A DNA stretch of 64,000 nt from Sycon ciliatum (Eukaryota; Porifera; Calcarea; Leucosolenida; Sycettidae). The translations under genes and the position numbers were made by a program. The notes below the pieces were generated by a model, which ran no database searches, was not told the origin of the DNA, and was given only the letters and a program-made list of their open reading frames with translations. Of the stretch, positions 5,812 to 63,720 are shown in pieces (positions within the stretch are counted from its first letter, which is position 1; each line of letters begins with the position of its first letter). Where the stretch lies: the NCBI RefSeq assembly GCF_964019385.1, contig NC_088653.1, positions 13,733,154-13,797,153 on the forward strand, given 5' to 3'.

Positions 5812-5817
5812 TTTATT
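5812..5817 (-). terminator. Poly(A) signal of gene copy A
   Basis: AATAAA on the minus strand, about 21 nt after the copy A stop codon. The same hexamer in the same context recurs behind copies C (17562-17567) and E (26985-26990). It is degraded behind D, H and I. Confidence 0.65.
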
Positions 5818-5837
5818 TCTCCAAAAAGCTGCGTTCA

Positions 5838-6921
5838 TTATGTAGGGGAAAGAAGTGTTGTTACAGCGTTTGTAAACAGAGATTTTTGAAGTTCTTCACT
5901 TGTTTTCGAATCCAATGCAGGAGTGCAACCTGAACCAATCGATACTCCGCTATCATTCGCATGAGCACGGCCCCAATCGCACGAAAGGTTAATCCTATGG
6001 AACACATAGCGTGGCATAAAGAATTGAAAATCAGCTAGAATATTTATTATTAAAAGGCAAACTATGCGTGCAGAAACCACTGTTCTTGTGCATCGCTCAC
6101 AGCCAGAAATATAAATCGTGAAATCGTTCCTCCATTCAATTCGCCCTCCCACCAAAAAAGCTATGACATAAAATGACCTTGGGTTCCCAGTAAAAAGGCA
6201 ACGCCTGTTGGGACTCCCCTGGTAAATTAATCAAATCTACTACTACTACTACCTACTTTCTGACATTTTCAATTGGGAATCTCGGTATTAAACCTAACGA
6301 TACGGAAGCGTGTATGAATTTTAGATTGAATAATGAACGGATTTTGGGAACGTCTGAAGGGTATAAGCCTCCACACCGGAACTTTAATTCCTCGATCAAC
6401 TGCTCCGTGCCTAACAAATGATAACTGGACCACAGGGACGGATATCTGGGGATCATAAATCCGATACAATTCAGCCATGACTCTTGGTAGATATGACTTG
6501 GTGTGAGCTTCTCCCATGATGATCCGCTCACTGCTGTTACATCTAAATCTTCGTTATCTCCTTCAAAGCACTCTGGTGTTCGCCAGACACAAACCTCCTC
6601 GACAACATAAGCTGCCCAATGGCTAGGACAATCGATAACGGCTATCCGTAGATCTTCACGACAAGCCAAATGCAGTCGACCCAGTGCATTCACGAAGTTC
6701 TCTTCAACTTAACCATCAAAAGATTGCGACGCACTACTGCAATCTCGGAGATTGATGACTAACCTTTTGCATCGGCAGAGGTCGAGGGTGGTGTAGTTCT
6801 CCAATAAAAGTAAAGTGGGACCAAATCTCAAATCCAAAAACCTTCAGAATCTGAACAGCCTCGTCACAGTCAGCATCATAATGATGTTTCGGTCTTGAAA
6901 AACAAATTCTATATTGACCAG
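5838..6921 (-). pseudogene. Array gene family, type 1, copy A (broken)
   Basis: This is a member of the unrecognised array family. The middle is well kept, with the family landmarks EENFVNAL, VIDCPSHWA, SGSSWE.LTPSH.YQES and PRFPIENVRK, and the C-terminal part ends in LLSP. The start codon has changed from ATG to CTG at 6919-6921, two in-frame stops lie in the N-terminal part, and a LINE tail is inserted at about 6171-6252. The function is unknown. No signal peptide or clear membrane segment is visible. An AATAAA follows the stop and a TATA/initiator precedes the gene, so it was once a complete short transcription unit. Confidence 0.75.
6171..6252 (-). mobile_element. LINE 3'-tail insertion with (CTA)n end
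   Basis: About 80 bp interrupt copy A where sister copies read straight through. Read on the minus strand it runs from a ttcccagtaaaaagg-like end through GTTGGGACTCCCCTGGTAAA into a (CTA)n-type tail. The same block in the same minus orientation lies at 59383-59452. This resembles the 3' end of CR1/Jockey-group LINEs. A few host bases are missing at the junction. Confidence 0.65.
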
Positions 6922-7049
6922 ATTCTAGCTGATTGCTAGGCTAAGATCAGGTTCACGCAAACTTGTCAGGAATTGTGAAGGACTCAGTCCTTATGAAGCC
7001 GTCGACGGTGACCGACCAGATCTGCCCTGCTCTTTCAAATGAACCTGAT

Positions 7050-7090
7050 GAACACTGACTGCTACTCTATAGAAACTAATTACTTATAGG
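7050..7090 (-). promoter_or_regulatory. TATA/initiator promoter of copy A
   Basis: TATAAG at 7088-7083 (minus strand) and an initiator-like TCAGTG whose A is at 7056, 32 nt downstream. The putative leader to the former start codon is 135 nt. A GTCGAC-centred palindrome (6999-7008) lies inside the leader. The layout is the same in copies E, G, H, I and J. Confidence 0.7.
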
Positions 7091-7329
7091 TGAAAACAAA
7101 GGAGATTGTCCTCATCTCTTTTTTTTAGTTCTTGAGCTGCTGATCGGTGAGAGTTAAGACTCGCTATTTTCGAAATCAGGTAAGTGTGAGAAAGAATGTG
7201 CTTACTTTCGGTGTGCAGATTACGTTCAGGGTCCAGTTTGAAAAACGTCCGTTCACTGTTGTGACTTATATTCCAAGAAAGTTTTACGCAATGTGACACG
7301 TTTGTGAGAAATTTAGACCAGCGCTCTGC

Positions 7330-8150
7330 ACAGAATGTATCAAATCCGGCCGTACCTATCGAGACCGAGAAATTCCACGCGGCTTCTGCTGGGCGAACAC
7401 TTATAATAATAATGGGAAGGGAAGCAACATGCAGTCATTCATTAACGGGCTTACTAGCTTACTAGCAGTGGTAGTAATGGGTAAAGCTCCAGCAGTGAGA
7501 TCGGAAGCAAACACAAAGTCACAATCTACACTGTCACTGGAAGTACAAACATTACTTTTCATAACTATGACTCCACATTGCATGCTGAGGTCGGCGTATT
7601 TGAGAAATTTTCTGGAAGAGCAACACTATAACATAAACGAAACTCATTTTCGATGTGTTGAAGTGGTAATTCTCCTTTCAATCATTGTCATTGTGAGAAC
7701 ATCTGAGATTGAAATCGACGACATCGGAGGAGAATCAATTTGCAGTTTGTTAAGGGGCTACGATGGTTTCGGATCGTGAAGCATTTGGGATTATCACATG
7801 GCAAGTGATCGTTGCCCATACTCCAGGGAATCAGCACCTTTCGCGCCGCGGGCAATAAACGGCGACATTTCCCGCAAAAAAATATTTTATTTCAGTGATC
7901 GCGTAAGTACGACGACTCTCTAGACTTAATGTACGACTTTATGCCAAGTCGCACTGTAGCATTGAGACGAAGATGGAATTCCTTTTGGAGATGGACGTCC
8001 GGGAAATGGACAGGGGCTCGGACGTCTGCCATGTGGCGCTTACAGGGATCATTTGTTCAGTAATGTCTTGCAGCGTTCCCTTCGATAAGCTTTTGGATAA
8101 AGATTCAGTTCTGCTCGATGCGGTACTGTGATCACAAACAATTATTTGGA
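7330..8150. repeat. Array module remnants
   Basis: 7430-7780 resembles 45300-45620 (gagatcggaagcaaacacaaag-type block and following), so this is unit sequence. 7790-8150 has no feature I can name. Confidence 0.5.
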
Positions 8151-9119: not shown

Positions 9120-9335
9120 CCCGGTTCCATGGCTCAGTAGTTAGAGCATTGCTCATGACAAGCAAGTTCCTGAGTTCGAGTCCTGGTGGGTCTGGGGATT
9201 TTTTCTCTTTTCATGAAGTTCACTTCCCAAACTGATCCTTTGAATTTGAAATTCTCCCAATCCTTTGAAAAATTTATTTATTTTACTTTTATAATTTTTT
9301 CGACAACGCAGATGATGATGATGATGATGATCGTG
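9120..9335 (+). mobile_element. tRNA-derived SINE with (GAT)n tail
   Basis: The head has A box TGGCTCAGTAG (9130-9140), a stem-loop like an anticodon arm (TTGCT, 7-nt loop, AGCAA) and B box GTTCGAGTCC (9174-9183). The body matches 8893-9010, and the element ends in a GATGATGAT run near 9310-9331. It would be transcribed by RNA polymerase III. I found no unambiguous target duplication. Confidence 0.75.
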
Positions 9336-11594: not shown

Positions 11595-12635
11595 TCATGG
11601 TTTCGGTGATAAAACTGTTGTAACCACGTTTGTCTTCAAAAATGAAGCATAATATAATGTTGGAACATTGTTTGCCACCACAGATTCGTCAGATTCTTCC
11701 TTTGCCTTAGAAAACAATCCACGAAAATATAAACCCATTACTGCTTTGTTCCAACTTGATTCGCTAATATCAAAAAATGAAAAGCGGCCACCTTTTTCTA
11801 AAACATGTTGAAGCGTAATGGATTGAAAGTCAGCAAGAATATTGAGAAAATATTTGCGAGCGGAAACCACCAAACTTGTGCATAGCTCACAGCCTTCGAT
11901 AACCATCTGGAACTTTTTAGAGCACTGCCTTGTCTGAATCAGAAAAGCTAGTACAAAAGCGAACACCTTTCTGAAGTACTGAAGACGTAGATCACAATCT
12001 GGCTCTATGTCATGGTGTGAGCAGTTGAAGTCAAAATAATAACTCAAAGGGTTAAGGCGTTGTTTGTTCCTGGACGGTCCAATTACGAGTCCTAACCTCT
12101 CGGTCCTCGTCTCCGCGCCATACAAGCTAAATTCAGACCAGCGAACTTCAATTCTGCCGTGTTTAGGCGAAAAACGTTCCAAACAGTTGAGCAATGATGT
12201 TTGGTAGAGATTACTGGATGTGAGTGACTGCCATGGTGATCCAGTTACCATATCCACTTGTACGCTATCCATAGTTCTTTTGCAAGACAGCGTACATCGC
12301 CAGTTTAGAAGCGTATTGACAACTTCAGTTGTCCAATGGCTAGGGCAATTGATAACTATCACCGACAAATGAGCACGGGAATCTAATCAAAGTCTACGCA
12401 ATGCATTCACGAAGTTCTCTTCAGCGATACGACCAAATTTCCTCAACGCACTACTGCAACGTCCGAGATGTAAGATTAGCTTTTCGCATCGGGATAGGTC
12501 GAGGGTGGTGTAGCTCAGCAATAGTAAATTAGGACGAAATGCCAAATGCACAACCTGATTCATCGCAAAGTAATCGTGACGGGGCTCACGATAACCATAT
12601 ACCAAAGGCCGAAAAGCAACTTCTATCTTGACCAT
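11595..12635 (-). pseudogene. Array gene family, type 2, copy B (one stop)
   Basis: This is a nearly complete type 2 member, 347 codons from MVKIEVAF to VLSPKP. The frame is open throughout except for a single TGA at 12387-12389, where sister copy G has CGA. Landmarks are LLLLSYTTLDLSRCEKLIL, AEENFVNAL, VINCPSHWT, GSPWQSLTSS.LYQTSLLNC and EGCELCTSLV. The promoter side is separated from the ORF by the LINE at 12657-14423, inserted about 12 bp upstream of the start codon, which probably silences it. The function is unrecognised. Type 2 differs from type 1 throughout but shares the CPSHW and LSPKP landmarks and overall order. Confidence 0.8.
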
Positions 12636-12656
12636 ATTCTAGCTAATTGCTAGGAT

Positions 12657-14423
12657 GTATGTATGTATGTATGTATAACTCATAATCACAAGGTGATCGT
12701 AGAGGCATTAATCAGCGAGAGAATTGTGAATGATGTCTCTGAATCCATCTCTATCGTGTGCTGCATGAGAGAGAGCATGCAAGGGAAGACCCGTCCAACT
12801 TTTAATGTTAGAAATCCATGATGTTGCGGGCCTTCCTCTCGGTCGAGATCCAGGAGTTGATCCTTGCAGGAAGGGCTTGGAGAAAACGTCATGTCTCGTA
12901 ACATGGCCAAACCACATCAACTTAAATTTCTTGACTTCGTTCGCTAGCCGCATCCTTGCTCCGATGATGTCATTGATTTCTTCCAGGACAGATTGGTTGG
13001 TACGCCGGTCGTGGTATGTTACTCCTAAGAGTCGGCGGAAGCATTTCATCTCGAAGGATGAAATTCTTCTCATTGATGAGGCAGATAATGTCCAAGATTG
13101 GCATCCGTATAAAACAGTCGCTAGCACAATAGACCTAACAAAACGAAATTTAGTAGGCAAAGAAAGTGATGGCGATTTCCAAATGAATTGAAGCTCAATG
13201 ATCTTTTGCTTCCCTAGTGCTAAGCGTCTTCTTATCTCCACATCGGACTTGCCATCCGACGTGATTACGGCACCTAAGTATTTAAACTGGGATACCTCTT
13301 CTATTCGCTCATTGCCTACTTGAATGCACCCCAGATCACCACCGCCCTCCGGCGCTGCCATTGACTTGGTCTTGGAAGCATTGATCTGCATGCCTAGTCT
13401 TGTTGCACTCGTATCCACGTGCTCGGTCAGGTCCATCAGCTCCTCCACAGACGATGCGATTAGATCTATATCATCCGCAAAACGTAGGTTGGTCACGCAC
13501 ATGCCGCCGATATATACTGACCCATCAAACTCCTCCAAAGCGTCAGACATGATGTACTCCAGGAATACGTTGAACAGACAAGGCGAGAGTAAACAGCCCT
13601 GCCTGACACCCACTGACGTGGTGAACCAGTCGGTGATAGTGGATCCAACAACGATGGCAGCTTCAGTAGTAGCGTAAAGCGCTTCAATCAGGTCCACAAT
13701 TCTTGCTTCGATGCCATGCGCTCTCATAATCTTGAATAGCGCTTTGTGCCAAACCCTATCAAAGGCCTTACGGAAATCGATGAAGCAATGATACACAGCC
13801 TGCTGATGGTCACGGTACTTTTCAATTAACATTCTGAGGTTGAAGATTTGCTCCACTGTGCTTCTTCCCTTCCGGAACCCTGCTTGCTCGTCCGCCAGCA
13901 AACCCTCCACTTGCGGCTGCAGGCGCTTCAGCAAGATCCTCAGTAGCACTTTGCTCGGATGACTGATGAGGCTCACTGTCCTGTAGTTTTGGCACTGCCG
14001 AAGGTCTCCAGACTTAGGGATGGGAACAAGAATGGACCTTGTCCATGATGTTGGCCATCTACCATTCGTCCATACGAGGTCACAAATCCTGTGCATAACA
14101 GCCACCAACGTATCTCCACCATGTCGCAAAAGCTCGCCAGGAATGTTATCAAACCCCGCTGATTTGTTGTTCTTGAGGGAGTTGATAGCGTATTCGACTT
14201 CGGTCCTCAGAATGGGATTGTTGTTGGCATTATCTGATATGGCTGGAGTAACGATTGCGTCAAGGACTTTATCATCTACGTTCAGGTCCACGTTGTACAA
14301 AGATGCACCGTACTCACACCACCGCTGAGCTACTTCTTCCTTTTTCGTTAAAGTGGATCCGTCTGCTGCTTTGATCACCTGCATTGCTGATCCTGATTTC
14401 TTGCTGCATAGACTCTTCAGAGT
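12657..14423 (-). mobile_element. 5'-truncated RTE-like LINE with 10-bp target duplication
   Basis: The element lies between identical 10-bp repeats TTGCTAGGAT (12647-12656 and 14424-14433). Sister units contain this sequence once at the same place, so it is a verified target-site duplication. The 3' end is a (ATAC)n run at 12657-12676. The 5' end is inside the reverse-transcriptase frame, so the endonuclease and N-terminus are missing. The insertion splits copy B from its own promoter. The clade is judged from motif style only. Confidence 0.88.
12708..14384 (-). CDS. Non-LTR retrotransposon reverse transcriptase (partial, uninterrupted)
   Basis: 558 codons from the first ATG, and the same frame stays open to the 5' truncation at 14423. 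The order is: N-terminal linker; NNKSAGFDNIPGELL and CQNYRTVSLISHPSK (fingers); AGFRKGRSTVEQIF; FIDFRKAFDRVWH (palm box A); GVRQGCLLSPCLFN (box B); FADDIDLIAS (catalytic FADD, box C); NASKTKSM; FKYLGAVI; VLYGCQSWTL; MKCFRRLLGV; and a basic end, GSRPRGRPATSW. This would copy the element's RNA at a nicked target. No endonuclease domain is present. The absence of stops suggests recent insertion. The style matches RTE-like elements, but the clade is my inference. Confidence 0.88.
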   Translation of the reverse strand: MQVIKAADGSTLTKKEEVAQRWCEYGASLYNVDLNVDDKVLDAIVTPAISDNANNNPILRTEVEYAINSLKNNKSAGFDNIPGELLRHGGDTLVAVMHRICDLVWTNGRWPTSWTRSILVPIPKSGDLRQCQNYRTVSLISHPSKVLLRILLKRLQPQVEGLLADEQAGFRKGRSTVEQIFNLRMLIEKYRDHQQAVYHCFIDFRKAFDRVWHKALFKIMRAHGIEARIVDLIEALYATTEAAIVVGSTITDWFTTSVGVRQGCLLSPCLFNVFLEYIMSDALEEFDGSVYIGGMCVTNLRFADDIDLIASSVEELMDLTEHVDTSATRLGMQINASKTKSMAAPEGGGDLGCIQVGNERIEEVSQFKYLGAVITSDGKSDVEIRRRLALGKQKIIELQFIWKSPSLSLPTKFRFVRSIVLATVLYGCQSWTLSASSMRRISSFEMKCFRRLLGVTYHDRRTNQSVLEEINDIIGARMRLANEVKKFKLMWFGHVTRHDVFSKPFLQGSTPGSRPRGRPATSWISNIKSWTGLPLHALSHAAHDRDGFRDIIHNSLAD

Positions 14424-14433
14424 TTGCTAGGAT

Positions 14434-14914
14434 AAGACCAGCTTAATACAATCTTGTGAGGAGTTATGAAGGACTCAGTCTCTATGAAACCGTCGACGGT
14501 GACTGACCAGATTAAAGCTGCTCTCCTCTTTCAAATGAACCTGATGAACACTGCCTTCTTCTCTCTAGAAATCAAGTACTTAAAGGTGAAAACAAAGGTG
14601 ATCGTCTGCAACTCTGTGTTAGCGTTTGCATAGATGATAGGTGATAGTCGATAATGTTTCTACACACAATCGGGAAAGTGTGAGTAGGAATGTGTTAGGT
14701 GTCGGTGGTTAGGTTACTTTCGTTGTCCAGGTTGCTTAACATCCATTGACTGTTGATAATAATATTGTACGATGTGACACATTTGTGAGACATTTAGACC
14801 AGCGCTCTTCATATTACGTATCAAATCAAGCCGTACCAATCGAGACCGAGGAATTCCACGTAAAGTCTCACACGGAGCTTCTGGTGGGGGAGATCTGCCA
14901 GGCGAGTTCTTAGA
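14434..14914. repeat. Leader and promoter block of copy B (displaced)
   Basis: This is the unit's 5' region, now beyond the LINE. It holds the leader palindrome ACCGTCGACGGT at 14489-14500. The TATA position near 14575 reads CTTTAAGTA instead of CTATAAGTA, so the box has decayed. Confidence 0.6.
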
Positions 14915-17589: not shown

Positions 17590-18570
17590 GTTGGGGGAAA
17601 GACATGTTGTACCATAGTTTGCAATCAGAGATTCTCGAAATTCTTCATCTGATGTCAAATACCAAGTAGGAGGACAACCCACATCAATCGATAATCCGCA
17701 TTCATTCGCATGGGAATGGCTCCAATCCCACAAAAGGTTAATCCTTTAGAACAAATAGCGTGGCATAAAGGATTGAAAGTCAGCAAAAATATTAAGGCAA
17801 AATACGCGTGCAGAAACCACTAATCTTGTGTAAAGCTCACAGCCAGCAATTTCTATCGTAAACTCTTTACACCAACCATTTCGCTTTTCCATCAGAAAGG
17901 CTATGACATAAACGACCAACCTTCTGACATTTTCAATTGGGAATCTCGAACTCGACCCTAACAGTACGCAATCGTGTATGCACTTTAGATTGAAACATGA
18001 AATAATGTTTGTGTAGCAGACTTCACTACTGAAGTATAATTCCTCACTGCTGCATTCAGAAACAAGCCAGCTATACCTGCACCTCCCAGCTTGATTTTCG
18101 GGGTATATTCTGTGAATACAATTCAGTAATGACTCCTGGTACAGATGACTGGGTGTGAGCGTCTGCAATTATGATCCGCTTACTACTTTGACATCGATAA
18201 TTTCCCTAGATCCTTTGACGTACTTTTGTGTTCGCCAGAAACAAAGCTTATGGACAACTTAAGCCGCCCAATGGCTAGGACAATCGATAACTTTTATCCA
18301 CAGATCTTCACGACAAGCTAAATGAAGACTATCCAGTGCACGGACGAAGTTCTCTTCAGCTACACCATCAAATGGGTGCGAAGCACTGCTGCAATCTCCG
18401 ATATTGATGACTAAACTCGGGCAACGGCATCGGTCGTGACTGGTATAGCTCTCCAATAATAAAGTTGCACCTATCCTCAAATTCAAAACCTGCAGAATCG
18501 GAACACTCTCGTCATAATCATGATAAGAAGCGTGTTTTGCGACAGTAAAATCTATTTCTATATTGACCAT
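17590..18570 (-). pseudogene. Array gene family, type 1, copy C (multiple stops)
   Basis: Starts MVNIEIDF. The family reading is clear to the CPSHWAA landmark, where AAA has become a TAA stop. A second stop precedes QTLTPSHLYQES and a third follows MPRYLF. A one-base loss shifts the last residues from LSPKP. Between these lesions the protein matches copies E and I closely (CIHDCVLLGSSSRFPIENVR, IAGCELYTRLV). AATAAA lies at 17562-17567 behind it. The TATA region at about 18750 is altered. This is a clear pseudogene of unknown function. Confidence 0.8.
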
Positions 18571-18836
18571 ATTCTAGCTAATTGCTAGGATGAGACCAGC
18601 TTCCCACAAACTTGTCAGGATTTGTGATCGACTCAGTATCTATGAACCCATCCACTCTAAAAGACCAGATTCCAGCTGCACCGCTCTTTCAAATGAATCT
18701 AATGATCGCTGACTGCTAATCTTTAGAAACCAAGGTCGTATAAGTGAAAACAAAGATGACTAGATTACCCGAAACTTGTTATACACGAAATCAGGCAAGT
18801 GCGACTAAATATTGTCTCAATGTGACATATAGCTCT

Positions 18837-19929: not shown

Positions 19930-20624
19930 TAGCCCTTTCTCAAAGGTGCTCACCCTTTTTTCGCTTTTTTTGGGCCATTTGGGAAAAGCCCGTTTTTTCA
20001 CCCTTTATTGCGTTTTTTGGTGAATATCGCCCTTTCTGAGCTGTTTTAGCTGTTAAAGTGCTAAAATCTGTTTGCTCATGCATGCGATCACGGTTTCCGA
20101 GTGCTCCATGGTCCTTGGCACGCCGCTTTTCTGGGGGCAACAAGTTGTGTACCCGGTGTACACATTGCTGTAAAAAGTGGGTTTCTTGAACTTTACTTCC
20201 TGTTTTGCCTTTCAATGACCGATGACTGGAAGAGCGCGTATTCATTTCTCAGCTTGGGTTCATATCTGAGTATGTATCATGGCTATGCTTCACTGACAAA
20301 AGAGCACTTTTTGGCTATTTTCACTGAAAAAAAGCACCTTTTGCCTGTTTTCACTGGGAAAAGAGCACTTTTTGGCTGTTTTCACTGAAAAATAAGCACA
20401 TTTTGCCTGTTTTCACTGAAAAAAGAGCACTTTTTGCCCGTTTTCAATGAAAAAAGAGCATTTTTTGCCAGTTTTCACTAAAAAAGAGCACTTTTTGCCT
20501 GCTCTCACTGAAAAAAGAGCACTTTTGGCCTGTTTTCACTGATAAAGAGCACTTTTTCAGCATATTACGAGGGGCGCGAAAAGCACTAAGTGCGAATTAA
20601 CAGAGGACCTTTGGGAAAGGGCTA
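19930..20624. mobile_element. hAT-like non-autonomous element carrying a minisatellite
   Basis: Terminal inverted repeats are TAGCCCTTTCTCAAAGGTGC on the left and the matching GACCTTTGGGAAAGGGCTA on the right. Flanks GTCGTGTG (19922-19929) and GCCGTGTG (20625-20632) form an 8-bp duplication with one mismatch. The interior is mostly a 30-bp tandem repeat. The right end of a second member lies at 43003-43081 with the same flank GCCGTGTG, so the two loci descend from one insertion or one duplicated unit. Confidence 0.75.
20285..20560. repeat. 30-bp minisatellite
   Basis: Roughly nine copies of a 29-30 bp unit of the type gagcactttttgcctgtttt followed by cactgaaaaa. The same repeat is at 37650-37864 and 43003-43018. 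Confidence 0.9.
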
Positions 20625-20872: not shown

Positions 20873-21198
20873 TCATGGTTTCGGGGAGAGAATTGTTGTA
20901 ACATCCTTTGCAATCAGAGATTCTCGAACATTTTCTTTTGATTTCAAATTCATCGCAGGGTTACAGCCGAAACCAATAGATAATCGGCTTTCATTCGCAC
21001 GGGCACAGCCCCAATCCCACAAAAGGTTAATCCTACTGAACATATAGTGTGGCATTAAGGATTGAAAATCTGCTAGAAATTAAGGCAAAAAATGCTTGCA
21101 GAAACCACTAATCTTGTGCACAGCTCACAGCCAGCAATATCAATCGTGAAATCTTTCCACCAATCAATTTGATTTCCCACGAAAAAAAAGCTATGACA
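20873..21198 (-). pseudogene. Array gene family, type 1, copy D (C-terminal remnant)
   Basis: The last 60 codons are open (MPHYMFSRINLLWDWG to TTILSPKP), and some 50 further decayed codons extend to the break at 21198. The rest of the gene is absent: sequence passes directly into the TIR element starting near 21204, and the far side (24229 on) is not the missing part. The poly(A) signal context is altered to ATAACA. It is closest to copy H in this region. Confidence 0.75.
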
Positions 21199-24714: not shown

Positions 24715-25330
24715 TGTTACTCAACACACTGCAAGCGACAGGCTGCAGCGCTGACCATCACACCGTTTTCTCTAGAGGTGCTGTATCGCCAAAGAGGTTT
24801 GTAGAGATTCAACGTGGGAGTCGGTTTCCACTTAGCACCATCTTCGGCGAATACACGTGCTTCAACTGAATTGTTATTCCCGAGAAAATTGGTAGCACCA
24901 CTGAGCAGTATCATTTTATTGTACTAAATGATGCACGTTCCGACTCCACAATCACCTCCTTATCGACTAACGACGAGTTGTTTCTCTTCCCCCTACAATT
25001 GTAAGCAATCACACGGCAGCACTTGCCCCGCAGAGACGGCGTGAAATTTTCACAGTTTCGACTGGTGCGGCTGGATTTGATATCTTACGTGTAGAGCGTA
25101 TGGCTAAATTTCTCAAAAGTTTGTTACTTTGCGACAATCTTTCCTACAAGATTTGTCAGAAAAGTCATTATACATTAATCAACCTGAACCCCGAACGTAA
25201 CCTGCACACCAAAAGTAAGCATTCTTACTCGCACTTGCCTGATTTCGTGTATAACAAGTTTTCGCTATCACCTCTAATCTAAACAAGAGCTAAGACTGAG
25301 TTGTAGATAATCAATCACCTTTGTTTTCAC
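24715..25330. repeat. Array upstream modules in inverted orientation
   Basis: These are the module found upstream of other genes (ttggtagcaccactgag..., gtgggagtcggtttcc) and the distal promoter block, but reversed. They belong to plus-strand copy E, so this unit as a whole is inverted relative to its neighbours. Confidence 0.75.
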
Positions 25331-25370
25331 CTATAAGTACTTGGTTTCTAAAGAGTAGCAGTCAGTGTTC
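25331..25370 (+). promoter_or_regulatory. TATA/initiator promoter of copy E
   Basis: TATAAG at 25332-25337 and initiator gTCAGTG with its A at 25364, exactly 32 nt from the first T. The leader to ATG 25502 is 138 nt. The leader GTCGAC palindrome is changed to gttcgac here. Confidence 0.72.
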
Positions 25371-25501
25371 ATCAGGTTCATTTGAAGGAGGAGAGCAGCT
25401 GTTATCTGGTCGGTCACGTTCGACGGATTCATAGAAACTGAGTCCATCACAACCCCTGACAAGTTTGTATGAAGCTGGTGTTAGCCAAGCAATTAGCTAG
25501 A

Positions 25502-26967
25502 ATATGGTCAATATAGCAATTTATCACTCTCTTATTATTGACCCCCACAGAAACTTGTGATCTCTAAGCGGTCAAATATCAGCATATATTGACCGCTTAT
25601 ATTGACCACTTATTATTGACCACTTAGCCTGAGGACTTAGATTTCCTCAACTTAGAAAAAAATCAGAACTGAAAGAAGAAAAATCTGAAGCCAAATGGTG
25701 GGATTCGAACCCAAACTGTCAGATTCTCAGTCAAAGGACTTGGGGAACATACTACAAGAGACAACTGAAAACTTTGGTTTACACAGAAGTAATGTCCAAT
25801 GTAAACGGCATATGTACATACTATTATACTATTACAATAGTATACCTTTCTTCCTATAGCAAAGCAAAATCAGTTTTAGGTATGCTATGTCGTGATAAAT
25901 TTATTATTGCCCTCATAATCGGTCAATATATGAAATATAGACCTCGTAAAAGACCTCGGGGGACCTCGGTCTTTTACTCGTTCTATATTTCATATATTGA
26001 CCTCTTTAATCGTGCAATAATAGATACATATTTTACTGCCACAGACCCCGCTTCTTATGATGATTGTGAAGAGACTGTTTCGTTTCAGCAGGTCTTGAAT
26101 TTGAAATTAGGTCCCACTTTACTATTGGAGAGCTGTACCACTCACGACCGATGCCTTTGCCTGTGTATAGTCATCAATCTCGGAGATTGCAACAGTGCTT
26201 CGCAGCCATTTGATGGTGTAGCTGAAGAGAACTTCGTGCGTGCACTGGATATTCTTCATTTGGCTTGTCGTGAAGATCTGTGGATAAAGGTTATCGATTG
26301 TCCAAGCCAATGGGCGGCTAAAGTTTTCGAGAAGCTTTGTTCCTGGCGAACACCAGATGACGTCAAAGGATCTAGGGAAATTATCGATGTAGAAGTAGAA
26401 AGCAGATCATCATTGGAGACGATCACACCCAGTCATCTGTACCAGGAGTCATTACTGAATTGTATCCACAGAATATACCCCGAAAATCAAGCTGGGAGGT
26501 GCAGTTATAGCTGGGTTGGTTCTATGTGGTGCAGTGAGGAATTATACTTCAGTAGTGAAGTCTGCTACCCAATCATTATTTCATGTATCAATATAAAGTG
26601 CATACACGATTGCATACTGTTAGGCTCGAGTTCGAGATTCCCAATTGAAAATGTCAGAAAGTTTGTCGTTTATGTCATAGCCTTTCTGATGGAAAAGCGA
26701 AATGGTTGGTGTAAAGAGTTTACGATAGATATTGCTGGATGGGAGCTATGCACAAGATGAGTGGTTTCTGCACGCGTATTTTGCTTTAATATTATAGCTG
26801 ACTTTCACTCCTTTATGCCACATTTCATGTTCTACAGGATAAACCTTGGAAGCGGATTATGGATTGATGTAGTTTGTTCTCCTACTTGGTATTTGACATC
26901 AGATGAAGAATTTCGAGAATCTCTGATTGCCAACTATGGTACAACATGTCTTTCCCCCAAACCATGA
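25502..26967 (+). pseudogene. Array gene family, type 1, copy E (inverted, interrupted)
   Basis: This is the only plus-strand copy. ATG at 25502 starts MVNI, then about 500 bp of foreign sequence (25521-26018) intervenes. The family frame resumes and runs through LLLESCTTHDRC, AEENFVRALD, VIDCPSQWAAK, TPSHLYQES, SSRFPIENVRKFVVYVI and AFLMEKRNGWCKEF. A TGA stop at 26758-26760 replaces a leucine codon. After it the frame continues to CLSPKP with a short deletion near YRINLGSG. AATAAA lies at 26985-26990. No domain is known for the family. Confidence 0.8.
25521..26018. mobile_element. Insertion with SINE fragment and long hairpin
   Basis: Absent from all sister copies. It contains a minus-strand tRNA-like B box GGTTCGAATCCC (25701-25712). 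It also has a hairpin whose perfect 21-nt arms lie at 25921-25941 and 25982-26002, with partial pairing of the 40-nt loop. Copies of the tract ttattattgacc repeat near the left side. The arm's outer bases GGTCAATATA equal the host sequence after the start codon, perhaps microhomology at insertion. Confidence 0.6.
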
Positions 26968-37640: not shown

Positions 37641-37649
37641 TTGTTTTCA

Positions 37650-42347: not shown

Positions 42348-42348
42348 T

Positions 42349-42673: not shown

Positions 42674-42729
42674 GTTCACCCTCCATTCGTCTCATCTTAT
42701 CTTGCTAATGGTACTAGGGAACATTTAGT

Positions 42730-43284: not shown

Positions 43285-44278
43285 TCATGGTTTCGGGGAG
43301 AGAAATGTTGTAACATCCTTTGCAATCAGAGATTCTCGAACATGTTCATTTGATTTCCAATTCAATGCAGGGTTACAGCCGAAATCAATCGATAGTCCGC
43401 TTTCATTCACACGGGCACAGCCCCAGTCCAATTCAAGGTGAATCCTATTGAACATAATTATAGTGTGGCATAAAGGATTGAAAATCAGCTAGAAAATTGA
43501 GGCAAAAAATGCCTGCAGAAACCACTAATCTTGTGCACCACACACAGCCAGCAATATCAATTGTCAAATCTTTCCACCAATCAATTTGCTTTCCCACCAA
43601 AAAAGCTATGACAAAAACGACCAACTTTCTGACATTTTCAAGTGGGAATCCGGGGATTGAACCCAACGGAAAGCAATCGTGTATGCATTTTATGTATAAA
43701 CATAAACCAAAGTGGGGAAGAGGTGAGGGGTATACGACTCCATAAGTGAGGTTTAATTCCTCGGTCCACGCCTTACTGCCAAACAAACGATAACTTGACC
43801 AGAGATTTGGATATCCGGGGTATATAAATTGGATACAGTTGAGTATTGACTCCTGGCACAGCTTAGTGGGCGTGAGCGTCTCCCATGATGATCTGCTTAC
43901 TACTTTTATAATTAAACCTTCTTGATCTCCTTTAAAGTACACTGGATTTCGCCAGAAACAAAGCTTTTCGACAACATTACCTGCCCAATGGCTAGGACAA
44001 TCGATAACTGTTATCCGCAGATCTTTACGACAACCCAAGTGAAGTCTATCCAGTGCATGGACGAAGTTCTCTTCAGCTACATCATCAAATGGCTTCGACG
44101 CACTGCTGCAAACTCCGAGATTGATGATGATACTTGGGCATCGGCATAGGTCGTGGGTGGTGTGGCTCACCAATAACAAAGGGGGACCAAATTTCAAATT
44201 CAAAACCTGCTGGATCGGGTTATAGTCATCATAAAAATCGTCTACTTCGACCCGAAAAACTAATTCTATATCGACCAT
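43285..44278 (-). pseudogene. Array gene family, type 1 (F/H subgroup), copy H (one frameshift)
   Basis: ATG at 44278 (MVDIELVF). The upstream frame is also open to 44317. The family frame is uninterrupted for about 278 codons: LLLVSHTTHDLCRC, AEENFVHALDRL, VIDCPSHWAGNVV, RSSWETLTPTKLCQES, GSIPGFPLENVRKLVVFV and AFLVGKQIDWWKDLTID. A four-base insertion near 43459, after MPHY, shifts the end. The original end is readable in the next frame to TTFLSPKP, stop 43285-43287. Promoter intact; the AATAAA position is degraded. Function unrecognised. Confidence 0.82.
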
Positions 44279-44412
44279 ATTCGACCTAATGGCTAGCATA
44301 AAGCAAGCTTCACACAAATTTGCAAGGAGTTGTGAAGGATTCAGTCTCTATGAAACCGTCCACGGTGACCGACCAGACTGCAGCTGCTCTGCTCCTTCAA
44401 ATGAACCTGATG

Positions 44413-44455
44413 AACACTGACGGCTATTCTCTAGAAACCAAGTACTTATAGGTGA
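44413..44455 (-). promoter_or_regulatory. TATA/initiator promoter of copy H
   Basis: TATAAG with its first T at 44450, initiator TCAGTG with its A at 44418 (32 nt). The leader to ATG 44278 is 140 nt. Confidence 0.72.
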
Positions 44456-44879
44456 AAACAAAGGTGATTGATTATGTACAGTTCTGTGTAAGCCCTTTAG
44501 TAGATTATAGGTGATAGCCGAAACTTGTTATACACAAAATCAGGCAAGTCTGAGTAAGAATGTGCTTACGATCGGTGTGCAGGTTCCGTTCGGTGTCCAG
44601 GTTGATTAACGTCCAATAAGTGTTGTGACTACGAATGCAGAAAGGGTGTCGCAATTTGACATTTTTGTGAGGAATTTAGACCTACGCTGTACACTGCAGA
44701 TATTAAATCCAGCCGTACTAATCGCGACCGAGGAATTACAAGTAAATTCTCACACGTGGCTCCTGGTAGGCAAAAGCTGCCAGGCGAGTGCTTAGAATAA
44801 TAGTGGGAAAAGAAGCAACATGGAATCAGTCAGTAAGTGGGTGAATGTGGAGACGGAATGTGCAGCATTTATTATAATA

Positions 44880-53263: not shown

Positions 53264-53760
53264 TTTCTGGATGCAATAGTCCTGTGTACGGATATGTATC
53301 TGCCAGATATCAGGAACTGCAACGACTCTCAAAAGGTGTATAACACAACGGGAGATAATGACAAATTGAAGAAGTTCATGAGAATTATTATTCTACTCCA
53401 TAAAAACTAAAAGGAAATCAAACACCTTCAGTGATGAAAGTTTGGTTTTACTGATCCAAAAAGCTGTGATTATGGTTTTGGGGAAAGAAAAATGTACCAT
53501 AGCTCACAATCAGAGATTTTTGGATGCGATAGTCTTGTGTACGCATATGTATCTGCCAGATATCAGGAACTGCAACGACTCTCAAAAGATATATAACACA
53601 ACGGGAGATAATGACAAATTGAAGAAGTTCATGAGAATTATTATTCTACTCTATAAAAGCAAAAAGGAAATCAAACACCTTCAGCGATGAAAGTTTGGTT
53701 TTACTGTTCCAAAAAGATGTAATTATGGTTTAGGGTAAAGAAAATATGTACCATAGTTTA
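53264..53760. repeat. Tandem duplication (253 bp) of gene 3' end
   Basis: The ggatgc tract occurs at 53269 and 53522. Each unit holds the flanking module, the poly(A)-signal region and the reversed end of the gene (to caatcagagatttt). Copy I therefore has a second orphan 3' terminus. Confidence 0.85.
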
Positions 53761-54685
53761 CAATCAGAGATTCTCGAAATTCTTCATTTGATTTCAGAAA
53801 CCAAGTTGAAGAACAACCTACATCAAAACATAATCTACATTCTATCGCATAGGCACGGCGCAAATCCAAAAAATGGTTAATCCTATAGAACATATAGCGT
53901 GGAAAAAAGGATAGAAAGTCAGCTAAAATATTAAGACAAAATACGCTTGCATAAACCACTAATCTTGTGCATAGCTCACATCCAGCAATATTAATCGTAA
54001 ACTCTTTACACCAACGATCTCGCCTTTCCATCAGAAATGCTATGACATAAACGACAAACTTTCTGACATTTTCAACTGGGAATCTCGAAATCGAGCCTAA
54101 CAGTACGCAATCGTGTATGCACTTTAGATTGTAGCAGACTTCAAAACGGAAGTATAATTCCTCACTCCTGCATTCAGAACCAAGCCAGCTATACCTGCAC
54201 CTCCGAGCTGGATTTTTGGGGTATATTCTGTGGATACTGTTCAGCAATGACTCCTGGTACAGATGACTTGGTGTGAGCGTCTCCCATGATGATCCGCTTA
54301 CTACTTTTACATCTAAATATTCATCTTCTTGGACGTACTCAGGTTTTCGCCAGAAACAAAGCCTCTCGACAACTTTAGCTGCCCAATGGCTAGGACAATC
54401 GATAACTGTTATCCGTAGATTTTCACGACAAGCCAAATTAAGTCTGCCCAATGCATGCACGAAGTTCTCTTCAGCGACACCATCAAATGGCTGCGACGCA
54501 CAACTGTAAACTCCAAGATTGATCACTATACACGGGCAATGGCATCGGTCGTGAGTGGTATAGCTCTCCAATAGTAAAGTGGGACCAAATTTCAAATTCA
54601 AAACCAGCTTAATCGGAACAGGCTCATCACAGTCCTAATAATAACCGTGTATTGAGATCTTGAAACGTATTTCTATGTTGACCAT
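53723..54685 (-). pseudogene. Array gene family, type 1, copy I (one stop)
   Basis: 321 codons from MVNIEIRFKISIHGYY to FLYPKP in one frame. The sole visible lesion is TAG at 54635-54637, 17 codons in. Downstream, an ATG at 54601 opens 292 codons that could still be translated: NLKFGPTLLLESYTTHDRC, GVAEENFVHALGRL, VIDCPSHWAAKVV, SGSSWETLTPSHLYQES, SISRFPVENVRKFVVYVI and INIAGCELCTRLV. LSPKP reads LYPKP. The poly(A) position reads AGTAAAACC. Intact promoter upstream. Function unrecognised. Confidence 0.82.
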
Positions 54686-54825
54686 ATTCTAGCTACCGGT
54701 AATTGCTAGGATCAGACCAGCTTCACACAAACTTGTCAGGAGTTGTGAAGGACTCGGTCTCTATGAAACCGTCGACGACGACCGACCAGATAACAGCTGC
54801 TCTGCTCTTTCAAATGAACCTGATG

Positions 54826-54868
54826 AACACTGACTGCTTCTCTCTAGAAACCAAGTACTTATAGGTGA
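54826..54868 (-). promoter_or_regulatory. TATA/initiator promoter of copy I
   Basis: TATAAG with its first T at 54863, initiator TCAGTG with its A at 54831 (32 nt). The leader to ATG 54685 is 146 nt. Confidence 0.72.
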
Positions 54869-54984
54869 AAACAAAGGTGATTGTCTACAACTCTGTGTTA
54901 GCTTTTGCGTAGATAAAAAGGTACTAGTTAAGACTCGTTATACATGAAAGTGCGAGTAAGAATGTGCTTACTTTAGGTGTGCAG

Positions 54985-56074: not shown

Positions 56075-59000
56075 TTTATTTATTTTTTATTTTTTTACTA
56101 TTGACACAGCCCTACTGGAGAACAGGTGGAGAAAAAAAAGAAACGAGGAAAAGGACAAAACACAGGGGATGTAGGCACGACGTGCTCATGTGCTGGGAGC
56201 AACTCAACCGACCAGAGGTATGGACGTCAGCGTTGCAACTAGGCATCGAAAAATGTGTGTGTGTAGGGGGGGGGGGTTGCACAAGAACAACTGCAAAAAA
56301 AACAGAAGCTAGAGAATACCACAAAATAAAAACTTGGTGTGATATAATGAGAAGAAAATAATGACGCCCAAAAGCGCTAATACGAAATTAAGTTTTACGG
56401 TACGTACACAATATCAGTCGTTAAAGACTGATGCACCGCTAAGGGTTAAGAAAAAGGAAAATAATAAACCACATAGCGCTAAAGCTGCACCAAATAATAA
56501 TTTAAATTATAACTAAGCCGGGTGGAAAACCAAGAAATCATAACAAACAAGACAAACTCAATTATAAATTAATAATATAAAATTAAATAATAAAAGGTAA
56601 ATGAAGCCCAATATCATCAGCATAGCCGAACCGAACCAAGGAACATGGCCCATGCCACAGTCAAGAGTTCATCAGTAGAAGTCGGTAGCCATCAGCTAGT
56701 GTTAGTGCGTGAGGTACTTATGGACATCTACTTTGAACGTGTGGAGCCGCTTTAAGCTGAGTGTAGCTCTTACAATTTCGCTTGGCAAGCTGTTCCATAC
56801 TGAGACTACAGAAAACGGGAAGGAGCGAGAATCATAGGCAGGTGCTCTCCTGTCCAGGACTTGCTGCTGCTGCACATGGTGCTGCTGGCCAGGAGGGGGT
56901 TGACTCCCGGTGCGCCGAGCTTCTACATGGTTGGCTGGAGGGGGATCATGGGCCATTCATGGCGGTGAGCTGGGGTGGTCCTGGGATGCACTGGAGCTTG
57001 TACAGGTATACCAGCCCAGATACAATCCGGCGGTGGCACAGGCTTTGGAGAAGGGCACCAGGGCCAATAATGGCCATTGCACGTTTCTGTACACGGTCGA
57101 GTCGGGCGAGGTGGCTGGATGCAGCTCCCATCCACACAAGGGGAACATACTCGAGGACGGGTCGCACAAATCCCTTGTACGCACAAAGCCGGCCATGGTA
57201 ATCCAACACCCGACAAGCCCGACGGAGAGCACCCAGTCTCTGACAGCCACGTGTCGCAATTTAGTGCAAGTGATCCCGGAATGACAGCTTGGCGTCAAAT
57301 GTCACTCCAAGAAGCTTGATGGTGGTGGTTTCCGGAACAGCGATTCCTCCAAACTTGATGTCAGGGACAGCAGGGTGTGTGGCTTTCGTAGTCATCAGCA
57401 GCTGTTGCGATTTAGAGGGCTCGAATCTGATGCGCCAGCGTTCTCCCCACTCTTCAAGACGCTTGAGGCTGGATTGCAAGGCGGCAGTCATGTCATTCAT
57501 ATTGTCCTGCATGCGGATGAGGCTGTAGAGGGTTGCGTCGTCTGCAAAGGAACTTAGTCGCGTCTCGGGAGACAGGCACTGATCCAGGTCAGACACATAG
57601 AAGAGGAAAAGTGTCAGGCCAAGGATACTGCCTTGGGGCACACCTGCTGTTATGGGCGCCGGGGAGGATGAGTCGCCGTGGACCAGGACTGATAGTTTGC
57701 GGTTCAGGAGGTAATCCTGCAGCCAGTGCAGCAGACAGCCACCAATGCCAACGTTCTTGGCTTTGAAAATCAGTCCAGAGTGTGATACCCGATCAAATGC
57801 TCCTGCTATGTCCACCGCCACCATGTGACCATACCCTCCATCGCTGATAGTCTTGACCCACTCAGTGTGCAAAGCAGTGAGGATGTCGCACTTGCCTCTT
57901 CCTTGCCGACAGCCATATTGACTGTCGGGCAGAATATTGAAACGCTCCAGATAATTCACGAGCTGCTTGTTTACTATACTCTCCATTACTTTTGACAGGA
58001 TGGATAGTAGTGAAACTGGCCGGTAATTCTTGGGATCCGAGCGGGGGCTCTTCTTGAAGACTGGAACCACATGGGTCAGCTTCCATTTGGTAGGTTGAAC
58101 ACCGTGGCGAAAGCAGAGTGAGAACAGTTTGGTGACTGGTTCTGCAATCTCACTGGAACACTGAGCTAGGACTCTTGCTGGAATATTGTCAGATCCTGTT
58201 GCCTTCGATGTATTCAGCTTGGCTAGACGGCGGCGTACATCAGCAAGCCAGAAATGGATGCGGGCAATACCATGGCGGTCCAAATGCTGCATTTCTGGCA
58301 GATCGTCTGGAGAGATGTCATCATCTGCCTCGCTTCACTTCTGGGAGTAGTACCTGGCGAGGCAATTGGCCATTGCTTGGCGAGTTGGATACTCTGTGCC
58401 GTCGGTGTCCTTAAGCAGAGGTATCTCAGAGGCACGTTCCATCCCAGCAGCTCTCTTCATGTCGGACCACCATTGCTTGTCGTTAAGTGAGCCTGAGCTG
58501 AGCTTAGCTTTGACACGAGCATCATATGATGATTGGGCGCGCAGCAAAATAGCAGCTGTTCGGGCCACTAGGTCCATGAATAAAGCTCGCAACTCTCCAT
58601 CATCGGGGTGCTGATGCCACCGTTTCCATGCACGAGTCTTTGCTTGAACTAGAGTGCTGCACTCAAGTGTCCACCAACAAGTGTCTGTCGTCCGTACTGT
58701 CAGGGTCTTAGATGGTATAAACGTGTCCATTCCATCCCGAATTACAGTTGTGAGTTGTTTACATGCAAGTTCGGGGACATTGCAGACGACAGCTGCCCAG
58801 TCAAAGCTGCGTAAATGTGCCCTCAGTCTGCCCCAGTCTGCTTGGCCATAAAGCCATACTTTCCTACTGGTTGGCCGCTCCAGTACAGGAGCGATTTCCT
58901 GAAAGTTGGACAATACTACACAGTGGTCAGAGCGCCCGATGGGAGATGATCCTGCTGTGTGGACAGTGCCAGGAAAGTCGTACAAGACGAAATCCAATGT

Positions 59001-59075
59001 GTTTGGCCCACGGGTTGGCTGGGTCATGTGCTGGACAAGACAGTGTGGACAAGACATGATTTTTGAAAATTATAG
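56075..59075 (-). mobile_element. CR1/Jockey-group LINE, nearly complete except 5' end
   Basis: On the minus strand: the C-terminal end of an endonuclease, then reverse transcriptase, C-terminus, about 600 bp of 3' untranslated region and an A/T-rich tail (tttatttattttttattttt in plus orientation). The host tract CTGGAT occurs on both sides (about 56071 and 59086) as a possible short target duplication. Beyond 59080 lies a scrap of the array gene (ccctatgacataaacgaac), so the element inserted in or near another copy. Confidence 0.8.
56702..59057 (-). pseudogene. LINE endonuclease/reverse transcriptase ORF (two stops, one frameshift)
   Basis: The endonuclease tail has GPNTLDFVLYDF and SPIGRSDHCVV (the SDH motif). 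A linker with IRDGMDTFIPSKTLTVRTTD then CWWTLEC follows. TGA at 58335-58337 interrupts, but the same frame continues: SKATGSDNIPARVLAQ, PKNYRPVSLLSILSKVMESI, QYGCRQGRGKCDIL, VAVDIAGAFDRVSHSGL, GVPQGSILGLTLFLFYVSDL and the catalytic box SSFADDATLY, then KLLGVTFDAKLSFRDHLH. TAA at 57261-57263 comes next. The frame continues to VLEYVPLVWMGA, and one frameshift near 56950 leads to the C-terminus FPFSVVSVWNSLPSEIV. Few lesions mean fairly recent decay. Confidence 0.87.
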
Positions 59076-59382
59076 TGGCTGGATCAGAAACCCTATGACA
59101 TAAACGAACTCTTTGCTGACGTATTGAAGGGGTAATTCCTCTTTTGAATCGATATCATGGTTTAAGCATATGAATTTGAAATCGGAGACATCGGATTAGA
59201 AGAATTCTGCAGCTCGTAAAGAGACTATAATGAAGTCGGAACGAGCAGCATTTGGTATAGTAATTTGTACCGACCAGTGGTGCTTGTTGCGAATATAATG
59301 TTAGTTGAAGCCTATGTGAAAGTCTTTGATGGTGCTAAGCTGAAAACCTACACTGCCGTTGATGCCGTACAATCCCCTTAGT

Positions 59383-61120: not shown

Positions 61121-62114
61121 TCATGGTTTTGGTGATACAAATGTTGTAACAACGTTTGTCATCACAGATTCTTCAGATACTTTATCCGACCTACAAAATA
61201 TAAACAATGGGTCTTGTCTTCCGCTCACACGCCTTAGCACTACCGGGTTCAAATTTGGCTGGCTACGATCAAAAGATGAAAAGCGGCCTTCATTTGTGAA
61301 AAATAATTGAAGCGTAAAGGGTTGAAAGTCAGCGAATATTGAGAACATATTTGCGAGCGGAAAACACCAAACTTGCGCATAGCCCACAGCCTTCGATAAC
61401 CATCCTGAACTCTTTAGAGTACTGCGTTGTTTGAATCAGGACAGCTAGGAAAAAAGGGAACACCTTTCTGACGTACTGAAGTGGTATATCAAAATCTGAC
61501 TTTATTTCATGGTGTAAGCAGTAGGATCTAAAATGAAACGTCAACGGGTTGAGGCTTTGTCGGGGCCAGGACCGTCCAAATGCGAATCCTAACCTCTCGG
61601 TCCTCGTCTCCGTACCATACAAGCTAAATTGAGACCAGAGAATTTCATAGTTGCTGTATTTAGACGATACACATTCCATACAGTTCAGTAATGATGTTTG
61701 GTAGAGATAACTGGGTGTGGTTGACTGCCATGGTGATCCAGTTACTATATCCACTTTTACGCTATCCTCACGTCCTTTGCAGCACAGCGTACATCGCCAG
61801 TTTATAAGCGTATCGACAACTTTAGTGGTCCAATGGCTAGGACAATCGATAACTGTTATCGACAAATCATCATGGAAAGCTAATCGAAGTCTACGCAAGG
61901 CATTCATGAAGTTCTCTTCAGCGACACCATTAAATCTCCGCGATGCACTACTGCAACATCCGAGATGTAAGATTAACTTTTCGCATCGGGATAGGTCGAG
62001 GGTAGTATAGCTCAGCAATAGAATATTAGGACGAAATTCCAAATTCACAACCTCGTTATGAGGCTCACGATAACCATGTTCAAAGGCCCGAATAGTTACT
62101 TCGATATTGACCAT
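61121..62114 (-). pseudogene. Array gene family, type 2, copy J (one frameshift)
   Basis: MVNIEVTIRAFEHGYREPHN starts at 62114 and stays open for 261 codons: ILLLSYTTLDLSRCEKLI, GVAEENFMNALRRLRL, VIDCPSHWTTKVV, GSPWQSTTPSYLYQTSLLNC, SLYGTETRTERLG and VIEGCGLCASLVF. A two-base loss near 61335 (cagcgaatattg where G has cagcaaaaatattg) shifts the frame. The remainder is readable one frame over as FADFQPFTLQ to TTFVSPKP, stop 61121-61123. Promoter intact. A variant poly(A) signal AGTAAA follows. Function unrecognised. Confidence 0.82.
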
Positions 62115-62250
62115 ATTCTAGCTTATTGCTTGGATAAGACCAGCTTAACACAAAATTTTAAGGAGTTATGAAGGACACAGTCTCTATGAAACCGTCAACG
62201 GTGACTAACCAGACTAAACAGTTGCTCTGCTCTTTCAAATGAACCTGATG

Positions 62251-62293
62251 AACACTGCCTGCTACTCTCTAGACACCAAATACTTATAGGTGA
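62251..62293 (-). promoter_or_regulatory. TATA/initiator promoter of copy J
   Basis: TATAAG with its first T at 62288, initiator CAGTGT with its A at 62256 (32 nt). The leader to ATG 62114 is 142 nt. Confidence 0.72.
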
Positions 62294-62639
62294 AAACAAA
62301 GATAATTGTCTACAACTCAGTTTTAGCGCTTGCTTAGATGATAGATGATAGTCGATAATTGTTATACACACAATCGGGCAAGTGTGAGTAGGGACGTGTT
62401 TTTGCGTGGGTGGTTAGGTTACTTTTCTTGTCCAGGTTGCTTAACGTCCATTGACTGTTGAGAATAATATTGTACCAAAGCTTGTCGCAATATGACATGT
62501 TTGTGAGAAATTTAGACTAACGCTCTACATATAACAAATCAGATCAAGCCGTACCAGTCGAGACTGAGGAATTCCACGCAAATTCTCACACAAGGCTTCT
62601 TGTGGGAAAGAACTACCAGACGAGTGCTTAGAATAATAG

Positions 62640-63390
62640 TGGTAAGAGAAGCAACATGTAGTCAGTCGGTAAGGGAGTGATTGTCAACTCGGAATGTGCA
62701 GCATTTAGTACAATATGTGCACCAAGGGGCACTTTTATAATTGCCAGCCGTGCTGCTACCCACAGTCAACTTGTAGTTTGTGGCCAGCCACAACGGGTAC
62801 ATGGATGCAGCTAATGCGGTCGATATGGGCTCTTGCGCCAGTGGTTAGGAGACTTATCCACACACCCCCACCTTTACGCGCCGCATCTGCCGCTTGGGTT
62901 TACCGGGTGTTAGCGGCCATCGTGAGTTCACTTTTACTGCCTCTTGGTGCCACGAAATTGCTCAGCACTAGCAATTGAGTCAAAGCGCATGTAATCGCCT
63001 AGGATGGTGCTAAGGTGCACGCTGGCTCTAATGTCGAATCTATGCGAACATCTTTGACGGTATAGGACCTCTATGGAAAACTGTCCGATACTCAACGACT
63101 TCGCCTGTCCATTGAAGCGGGTTTAGTATGACAGCATGGTTGGCGAGAGGGGACGTGGGCTAAGCTTGGCGACAAGCAGAAATTTAAGCGCTGTCCCCGA
63201 TCTAAACCAGTCACCAAAATAACAGCAGTATGTACAGTGGTAAAGGGACTTGTTATACTAATAGGGATGTTCGCAAGCAGAAAATATTGATGGCCAGCAA
63301 ACAGTGACGTGCGTTTGACTGGAACGACTGAAATGGAATTGAACAGTGCCAACGCAAGTCAGTTGGCGGCCGACCTCCTACTGATCTGTA
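62640..63390. repeat. Array upstream modules
   Basis: Same order as 15250-16290 and 32440-33050 (MITE-free). The small ORF block at 63290 carries a TGA six codons in. Confidence 0.7.
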
Positions 63391-63444
63391 TATGTACAGT
63401 AGGAGTAGGATAATTACAAAATTGAAGAAGTTCAGGAGAATAAT

Positions 63445-63720
63445 TATTATCAGAGCTTCTCGAAATTCTTCACCTGATTTCAAATCCAATGCAGAGGTAC
63501 AACCTAAACGAATCGATATCCCGCTACCATTCGCATGGGCACGGCCCCAATCCAACAGAAGGTTAATCCTATGGAACACATAGCGTGGCGAAAAGGAATA
63601 AAAATCACCTAGAATATGGAGGCAAAATATGCGTGCAAAAGCCAGTAATCTTGTGCATAGCTCACAGCCAGCAATAAGGATCGTGAAACCCTTACACCAA
63701 CAATTTCGATTTTCCACCAA
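63445..63720 (-). pseudogene. Array gene family, type 1, copy K (internal fragment)
   Basis: About 90 codons, VENRNCWCKGFTILIAGCEL then CTRLL, FHRINLLLDWGRAHANG and SGEEFREALI. It is cut off at both ends: on the 5' side at 63723 inside an AFL..K-type stretch, and on the 3' side at about 63440 before the LSPKP end, where flanking module sequence is joined in. It is closest to copies A and D. Confidence 0.75.

Follow-up and report, generated by a model that had tools for sequence, protein, structure and literature searches.

The 64,000-nucleotide window of the Sycon ciliatum genome analysed here in its whole length (C12:13733154-13797153, from a genome of 538 Mb that was also searched) carries, between 5.8 and 63.7 kb, the remains of an array of a gene family that none of the protein libraries we searched recognises. 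Using three open reading frames (ORFs) from the window as tblastn queries, we identified 12 copies or fragments, of which 11 lie on the minus strand and the remaining one, near 26 kb, on the plus strand, in keeping with a preliminary description of this DNA that had claimed at least eleven copies in 58 kb. The landmark motifs it had listed (CPSHW, AEENFV.AL, LYQ.SLLNC, [EA]GCELCT and LSPKP) were all found in the translated window copies, but some copies lack some of them. Its conserved non-coding modules were recovered when the window was compared with itself: the units of the array have in common their coding sequence together with several non-coding modules, repeated both upstream and downstream, over kilobases. 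The window array is therefore an old tandem array, which was later rearranged and received transposon insertions.

The claim that every complete copy contains one ORF did not hold, and the window copies are unsupported as working genes. Because each of the 12 is affected by stops, frameshifts, truncation or fragmentation, none is intact, and no translation yields an intact full-length frame. Copies B, G and I contain one in-frame stop each and copy C contains three; frameshifts or truncations affect copies A, F, H and K. In copy E a stop is combined with displacement of the 5' end, and no more than fragments are left of D, J and L. A TATA block (n=8) and an initiator/leader block (n=8) were identified in the window, versus none in 100 shuffles. 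These blocks precede eight of the 12 copies (A, B, E, F, G, H, I and K). The positions of the copies and their associated elements within the window are as follows.

5997-6939, minus strand: coding remains of copy A, with a stop and a frameshift, an internal insertion and a non-ATG start codon.
7034-7096, minus strand: promoter of copy A, with the initiator/leader block at 7034-7059 and the TATA block at 7077-7096.
11595-12656, minus strand: coding part of copy B, open to LSPKP apart from a single in-frame stop.
12657-14423, minus strand: long interspersed nuclear element (LINE) within the leader of copy B, encoding a reverse transcriptase (RVT_1, E 2.6e-40).
14424-14592, minus strand: displaced leader and promoter of copy B, with the leader block at 14530-14555 and the TATA block at 14573-14592.
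17617-18591, minus strand: copy C, with three in-frame stops and a frameshift at its 3' end.
20873-21186, minus strand: copy D, a frameshifted 3' fragment.
25324-25386, plus strand: promoter and leader blocks of copy E, set apart from its coding part.
25996-26964, plus strand: coding remains of copy E, with one stop and a replaced 5' end.
27275-27965, minus strand: copy F, truncated at its 3' end and abutting the inverted copy E.
28062-28124, minus strand: promoter and leader blocks of copy F.
30841-31914, minus strand: copy G, open to LSPKP apart from a single in-frame stop.
32013-32075, minus strand: promoter and leader blocks of copy G.
43285-44299, minus strand: copy H, with 284 open codons and then a frameshift ahead of the LSPKP end.
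44396-44458, minus strand: promoter and leader blocks of copy H.
53723-54688, minus strand: copy I, open apart from a single early in-frame stop.
54809-54871, minus strand: promoter and leader blocks of copy I.
59079-59183, minus strand: copy J, a short fragment.
61124-62135, minus strand: copy K, with a frameshifted 3' half.
62234-62296, minus strand: promoter and leader blocks of copy K.
63568-63729, minus strand: copy L, a fragment.

The LINE that separates copy B from its promoter is flanked on both sides by TTGCTAGGAT, which reads as a target-site duplication. Approximately 0.5 kb past the right end of the window lies the nearer (3') end of an intact relative, L010. The window is the decayed edge, or graveyard, of a superfamily, with an intact gene just outside it.

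This superfamily comprises at least four subfamilies, found mostly on one chromosome: W, to which the window copies belong, D, E and a C5 type. Most of subfamily W is located at C12 13.6-13.98 Mb (at least 113 matches at E<=0.001, part of them to subfamily D members), D lies at C12 12.85-13.58 Mb (at least 116 matches at E<=1, part of them to W, E and the C5 type), and E occupies C12 6.0-11.1 Mb, with outlying members on C10, C11 and C13 and at C12 16.3 Mb (at least 115 matches at E<=1, a few of them to D); the match lists for W, D and E overlap, and all three counts are lower bounds. The fourth type is represented on C5 by one gene, to which protein identity is 17-24%; a possibly allelic contig of 35 kb carries a copy of it at 96% identity. 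For the analysis of gene structure and phylogeny we used 42 intact members, defined as open frames of at least 280 amino acids that end in P[KR][PSL]. In a tree of these proteins, bootstrap support was 100% for the separation of E, W and the C5 type and 84/91 for that of D; the deep branching order is unsure, since the tree program warned of long branches meeting. Several pairs of loci have identical scores, as for example C12 13.679-13.686 and 10.085-10.092 Mb, which lie 3.6 Mb apart, and such pairs are either recent segmental duplications or assembly duplicates. As a separate observation, the broken E members L095, L097 and L098, at three loci, were seen by eye to carry LINE reverse-transcriptase remains after the first ~38 codons, and the like position of these remains suggests that one interrupted copy was later duplicated.

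The intact members are single-exon genes, as the preliminary description had proposed, with frames of 293-388 amino acids, 40 of the 42 falling within 327-374. Their P[KR][PSL] tail is conserved by construction, because it served as the selection criterion. Elsewhere in the protein (L044 numbering), C194 is conserved in 40/42 members, H196 in 36/42, C239 in 40/42 and C242 in 41/42, with all four present in 33/42, and this C-x-H ... C-x-x-C set could bind metal. No signal-peptide-like N-terminus was found among 15 members examined. A stretch in the middle of these proteins peaks at 1.2-2.1 (maximum 2.07) on the 19-residue Kyte-Doolittle scale, exceeding 1.6 in seven of the 15, and we take it as a probable buried helix. 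Comparison of the family profile with itself yielded no significant internal repeats. The poly(A) signal that had been described as part of each unit was rejected as a general component, since AATAAA or ATTAAA occurs within 300 nt of the stop in just eight of the 42 intact relatives. The leader of about 140 nt fared better: in 39/42 the leader block sits 114-174 nt 5' of the ATG.

In all four subfamilies, intact members carry a TATA-like element ahead of the gene and, after it, a block close to GTCARTGTTCAYCAGGATCANNTGAAGA. The consensus, which was derived from these same leaders, scores higher than the best of 200 shuffles of the upstream region in 32/42 members. A 27-nt leader pattern, with up to three mismatches allowed, occurs 76 times in the 538 Mb, versus 0 for the reversed control, and all 76 occurrences are on stretches that hold family members. 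When compared with a list of coding matches compiled from part of the rows of the subfamily searches, 61/76 occurrences precede a coding match by no more than 700 nt, 54 of those at 120-211 nt; among the remaining 15, we inspected seven and found a family fragment in five and none in two. The core promoter and leader are private to the family, and their blocks are still recognisable between subfamilies that share ~20% protein identity.

Searches for known relatives agreed with the earlier statement that the family is unrecognised. These searches used single sequences and two alignments. Pfam gave no match over its cut-off or at E<0.001 in overlapping sets of 5, 17, 6 and 21 proteins (best E 0.026, with each match limited to one member), NCBIfam gave none for 6 proteins and PHROGs none for 4, and sequence and profile searches of PDB chain sequences returned nothing at E<0.2. 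One scan of genome contigs with a single protein likewise revealed no relatives. One candidate, a match of the copy B C-terminus to DUF1139 (PF06599) at E 0.069 and 13 bits, compared with a cut-off of 25, was treated as chance; DUF1139 is absent from the matches of the further member sets scanned (17, 6 and 21 proteins). In the parts of the literature returned by full-text searches there was no recognised description of this family. On these comparisons the protein family appears new to the libraries searched, while it belongs to a kind already known, that of tandem families specific to a lineage and subject to diversifying selection.

Many intronless copies with shared promoters might also be produced by a mobile element or viral gene family that had spread through the genome. 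However, the members scanned have no match to a transposase, integrase, reverse transcriptase or viral family, with RVT_1 found only in separate LINE ORFs; flanking modules of several kb are common to copies; and the copies cluster on few chromosomes. Three scans of viral contigs revealed no relatives; in two of these the query was a single protein, which can reach no more than close relatives. We regard a mobile or viral origin as very improbable.

We then have to ask whether the family is maintained. Among the matches listed, 29/37 long rows are stop-free in E, 21/27 in D and 10/32 in W, as counted by hand on rows spanning at least 84% of the query, with the query's own row excluded and W rows having at least 37% identity; these counts ignore frameshifts, which split rows. 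Under neutral simulation on the D tree (100 replicates), a mean of 0.01 of 18 tips stayed stop-free, a figure for which the fair comparison is the 21/27 long D copies, because the 18 tips had been picked as intact. Since neutrality leaves almost no copies free of stops, it fails on its own to explain the open frames; the intact reading frames are under purifying constraint. Selective constraint in intact genomic copies had been named beforehand in the preliminary description among the tests of its reading, and on this point the reading is supported.

The same frames also contain sites that change fast. In a codon model the whole-gene ratio of replacement to silent substitution rates (omega) was 1.04 for 18 D sequences and 1.00 for 10 E sequences, while mixtures revealed site classes at omega <=0.5 and >=1.5 coexisting. 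Mixtures allowing omega>1 were favoured over mixtures capped at 1, with twice the log-likelihood difference (2dL) at 117 (18 D), 54.8 (10 D) and 40.7 (10 E). Null simulations under the capped model, run for the 10 D and 10 E sets (25 each) and fitted on a coarser tree-scale grid, gave 2dL of at most 8.8 and 6.9, respectively. Thus, under codon models, sites with omega>1 exist in both D and E. In one close pair, L004/L005, we counted 49.5 replacement versus 4.5 silent changes (Fisher P 0.003, uncorrected). The D sites with P(omega>1) >0.95 are enriched at lags of 2, 4 and 6 residues (P 0.005, 0.06 and 0.006) and not at 1, 3 and 5, and spacing with a period of two is the expectation for one face of beta-strands. 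In L014 numbering, selected D sites include 182/184, 198/200/202, 242/244/248/250, 291/293/295 and 325/327/329. None of the selected D sites lies in 209-241 and one (266) lies in 251-286, two stretches that we read as probable helices.

Whole-gene omega values of this kind look neutral, and W is mostly broken, both in the window and among the matches listed, as would be expected if these were relaxed, largely non-functional repeats of a family dying everywhere, whose omega near 1 reflects loss of function. Such an account is improbable in our view, given that the stop-free proportions in D and E contrast with almost none under neutrality, that conserved and fast site classes stand side by side, and that promoter blocks have stayed recognisable across subfamilies so diverged in protein sequence.

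Taken together, these data are best explained, in a judgement we hold with a little less than even confidence, by a birth-and-death host superfamily of recognition-type proteins, probably in defence, with the window as its decayed stretch and not a mobile element. Fast change of this sort is often seen in recognition or defence proteins. Duplication, both tandem and segmental and for the most part within one chromosome, would drive the gain and loss of genes of one exon, mostly 327-374 codons long, under a family-specific core promoter and leader; gene conversion would probably contribute. The gene products would probably be soluble, stay inside the cell and adopt an alternating beta/alpha fold that carries the C-x-H ... 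C-x-x-C set. A diversifying surface would be formed by some strands on their exposed side. Through this surface the proteins may bind variable non-self or selfish targets, in innate defence or allorecognition, and the shared promoter may allow members to be switched on together. The immune, reproductive or silencing role proposed in the preliminary description is still conjectural, and now has the signs of diversifying selection behind it.

Several observations weigh against this explanation. Simple pairwise dN/dS (the nonsynonymous to synonymous ratio) is mostly <1, exceeding 1 in 6/55 D pairs and 2/36 E pairs, which leaves the codon model as the basis of the omega>1 result; among 20 chosen close pairs, dN/dS is >1 in six (one undefined), and L004/L005 is the one pair significant alone. 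The neutral rate is uncertain because, in several close pairs, the flanks are less diverged than the silent sites. The two halves of D yield differing trees, as compared without an assessment of branch support, which suggests gene conversion, a process that may raise the statistics of site tests. When the halves were analysed separately, each with its own tree, omega>1 was still preferred (2dL 12.3 and 43.5). The period-2 test was made post hoc, after the alternation had been noticed, on three sets and six lags, and E (34 sites) gives no such signal. The promoter consensus fails to beat the shuffles in 10/42 members; two of these, L015 and L039, lack a convincing block, and the other eight belong to subfamily D and have the block at the expected place after the TATA box. 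The hydropathy of the seven members above 1.6 leaves a membrane span possible. Finally, none of the NACHT matches listed for this genome falls at C12 6-14 Mb, and among them no linkage to the family was found.

A host family caught in an arms race need not serve defence against invaders. Reproductive or germline proteins, acting in gamete or self recognition or as egg or sperm proteins, would also fit a fast-evolving family of single-exon genes with tandem birth and death, and the possible membrane span would suit them, whereas the 15 members examined have no signal-peptide-like N-terminus and the family is larger than most reproductive families are known to be; we consider this role unlikely. 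Intracellular action against transposons or viruses, by silencing or in a restriction-like manner, would be in line with the same lack of signal peptides, with the LINEs present in family clusters and with the signs of diversifying selection, but Pfam recognises no nuclease, helicase, RNA-binding or zinc-finger family in the members scanned. We give it a small but real chance.

Two known repertoires offer a comparison for the recognition-type superfamily that we favour. SpTransformer (Sp185/333) of sea urchin belongs to the innate immune families that have expanded in tandem within one lineage. Its proteins are secreted, whereas the present family shows no signal-peptide-like start in the members examined; to our knowledge, SpTransformer has no recognisable relatives outside its lineage. 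Excerpts of a study in sea urchin describe it as a large immune-type gene family with fast diversification (PMC8634487). The present family is likewise large and has signs of fast diversification. NACHT clusters, for their part, are known sponge immune arrays. In this genome, most of the 102 NACHT matches listed fall at C5 36.5-38.5, C12 21.3-22.9 and C14 0.2-2.8 Mb, where, as a side observation, the clusters hold very long single open frames of about 900-1200 amino acids, some >2000. The NLR (NACHT plus LRR) genes of Dysidea avara represent a very large sponge expansion that groups by species and not by category, according to the portions consulted of PMC12909245. The present family resembles these as a very large expansion in a sponge and differs from them in that the members scanned have no Pfam match to NACHT or LRR domains.

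Other features were recorded in passing. A LINE with RVT_1 (E 2e-32) at 57261-59057 adjoins fragment J. At 37864-42996 lies a DIRS-like retrotransposon, judged by eye from ORFs at 38.3-41.0 kb; its direct repeats (37864-38194/42348-42677, 94%; 42069-42347/42727-42996, 92%) are split, in an A1-ORFs-B1-A2-B2 layout, and the three of its ORFs that were tested are without Pfam match. One 31-bp repeat forms two arrays 17 kb apart, at 20289-20557 and 37642-37864, and ARAGORN predicts a tRNA-Ser (TGA) at 9122-9195. COX1 had no match in the assembly. Of 117 candidate homeodomain loci in the genome, 19 were inspected and 16 could be read as homeodomains; judged by eye, these are NK-, Msx/BarH-, POU-, LIM- and SIX-like, and the lack of any Hox-like one among the 16 is what a sponge should show. 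Elsewhere in the genome, C14 ~16.5-18.6 Mb holds a tandem array of several dozen homeodomain-like frames, many of 400-630 amino acids and apparently single-exon, which makes it another family that has expanded here.

In its most specific form, which we put forward as a possibility and with some doubt, the superfamily would be an undescribed intracellular recognition repertoire of a sponge, an analogue of NLR or SpTransformer systems built on a new fold. Its intact single-exon genes would number in the scores, be greatly outnumbered by broken ones and fall into at least four subfamilies of ancient divergence, with a family-private promoter that switches members on together and variation placed on one face of beta-strands. 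In the part of the sponge survey PMC12909245 consulted, immune genes are counted by conserved domains. Large, fast-evolving families without known domains escape domain-based immune surveys of this kind, and the promoter block, as one pattern that marks many members across subfamilies, provides a direct handle for testing induction. If the proposed role is true, part of the recognition repertoire of a sponge would be missing from domain-based counts.

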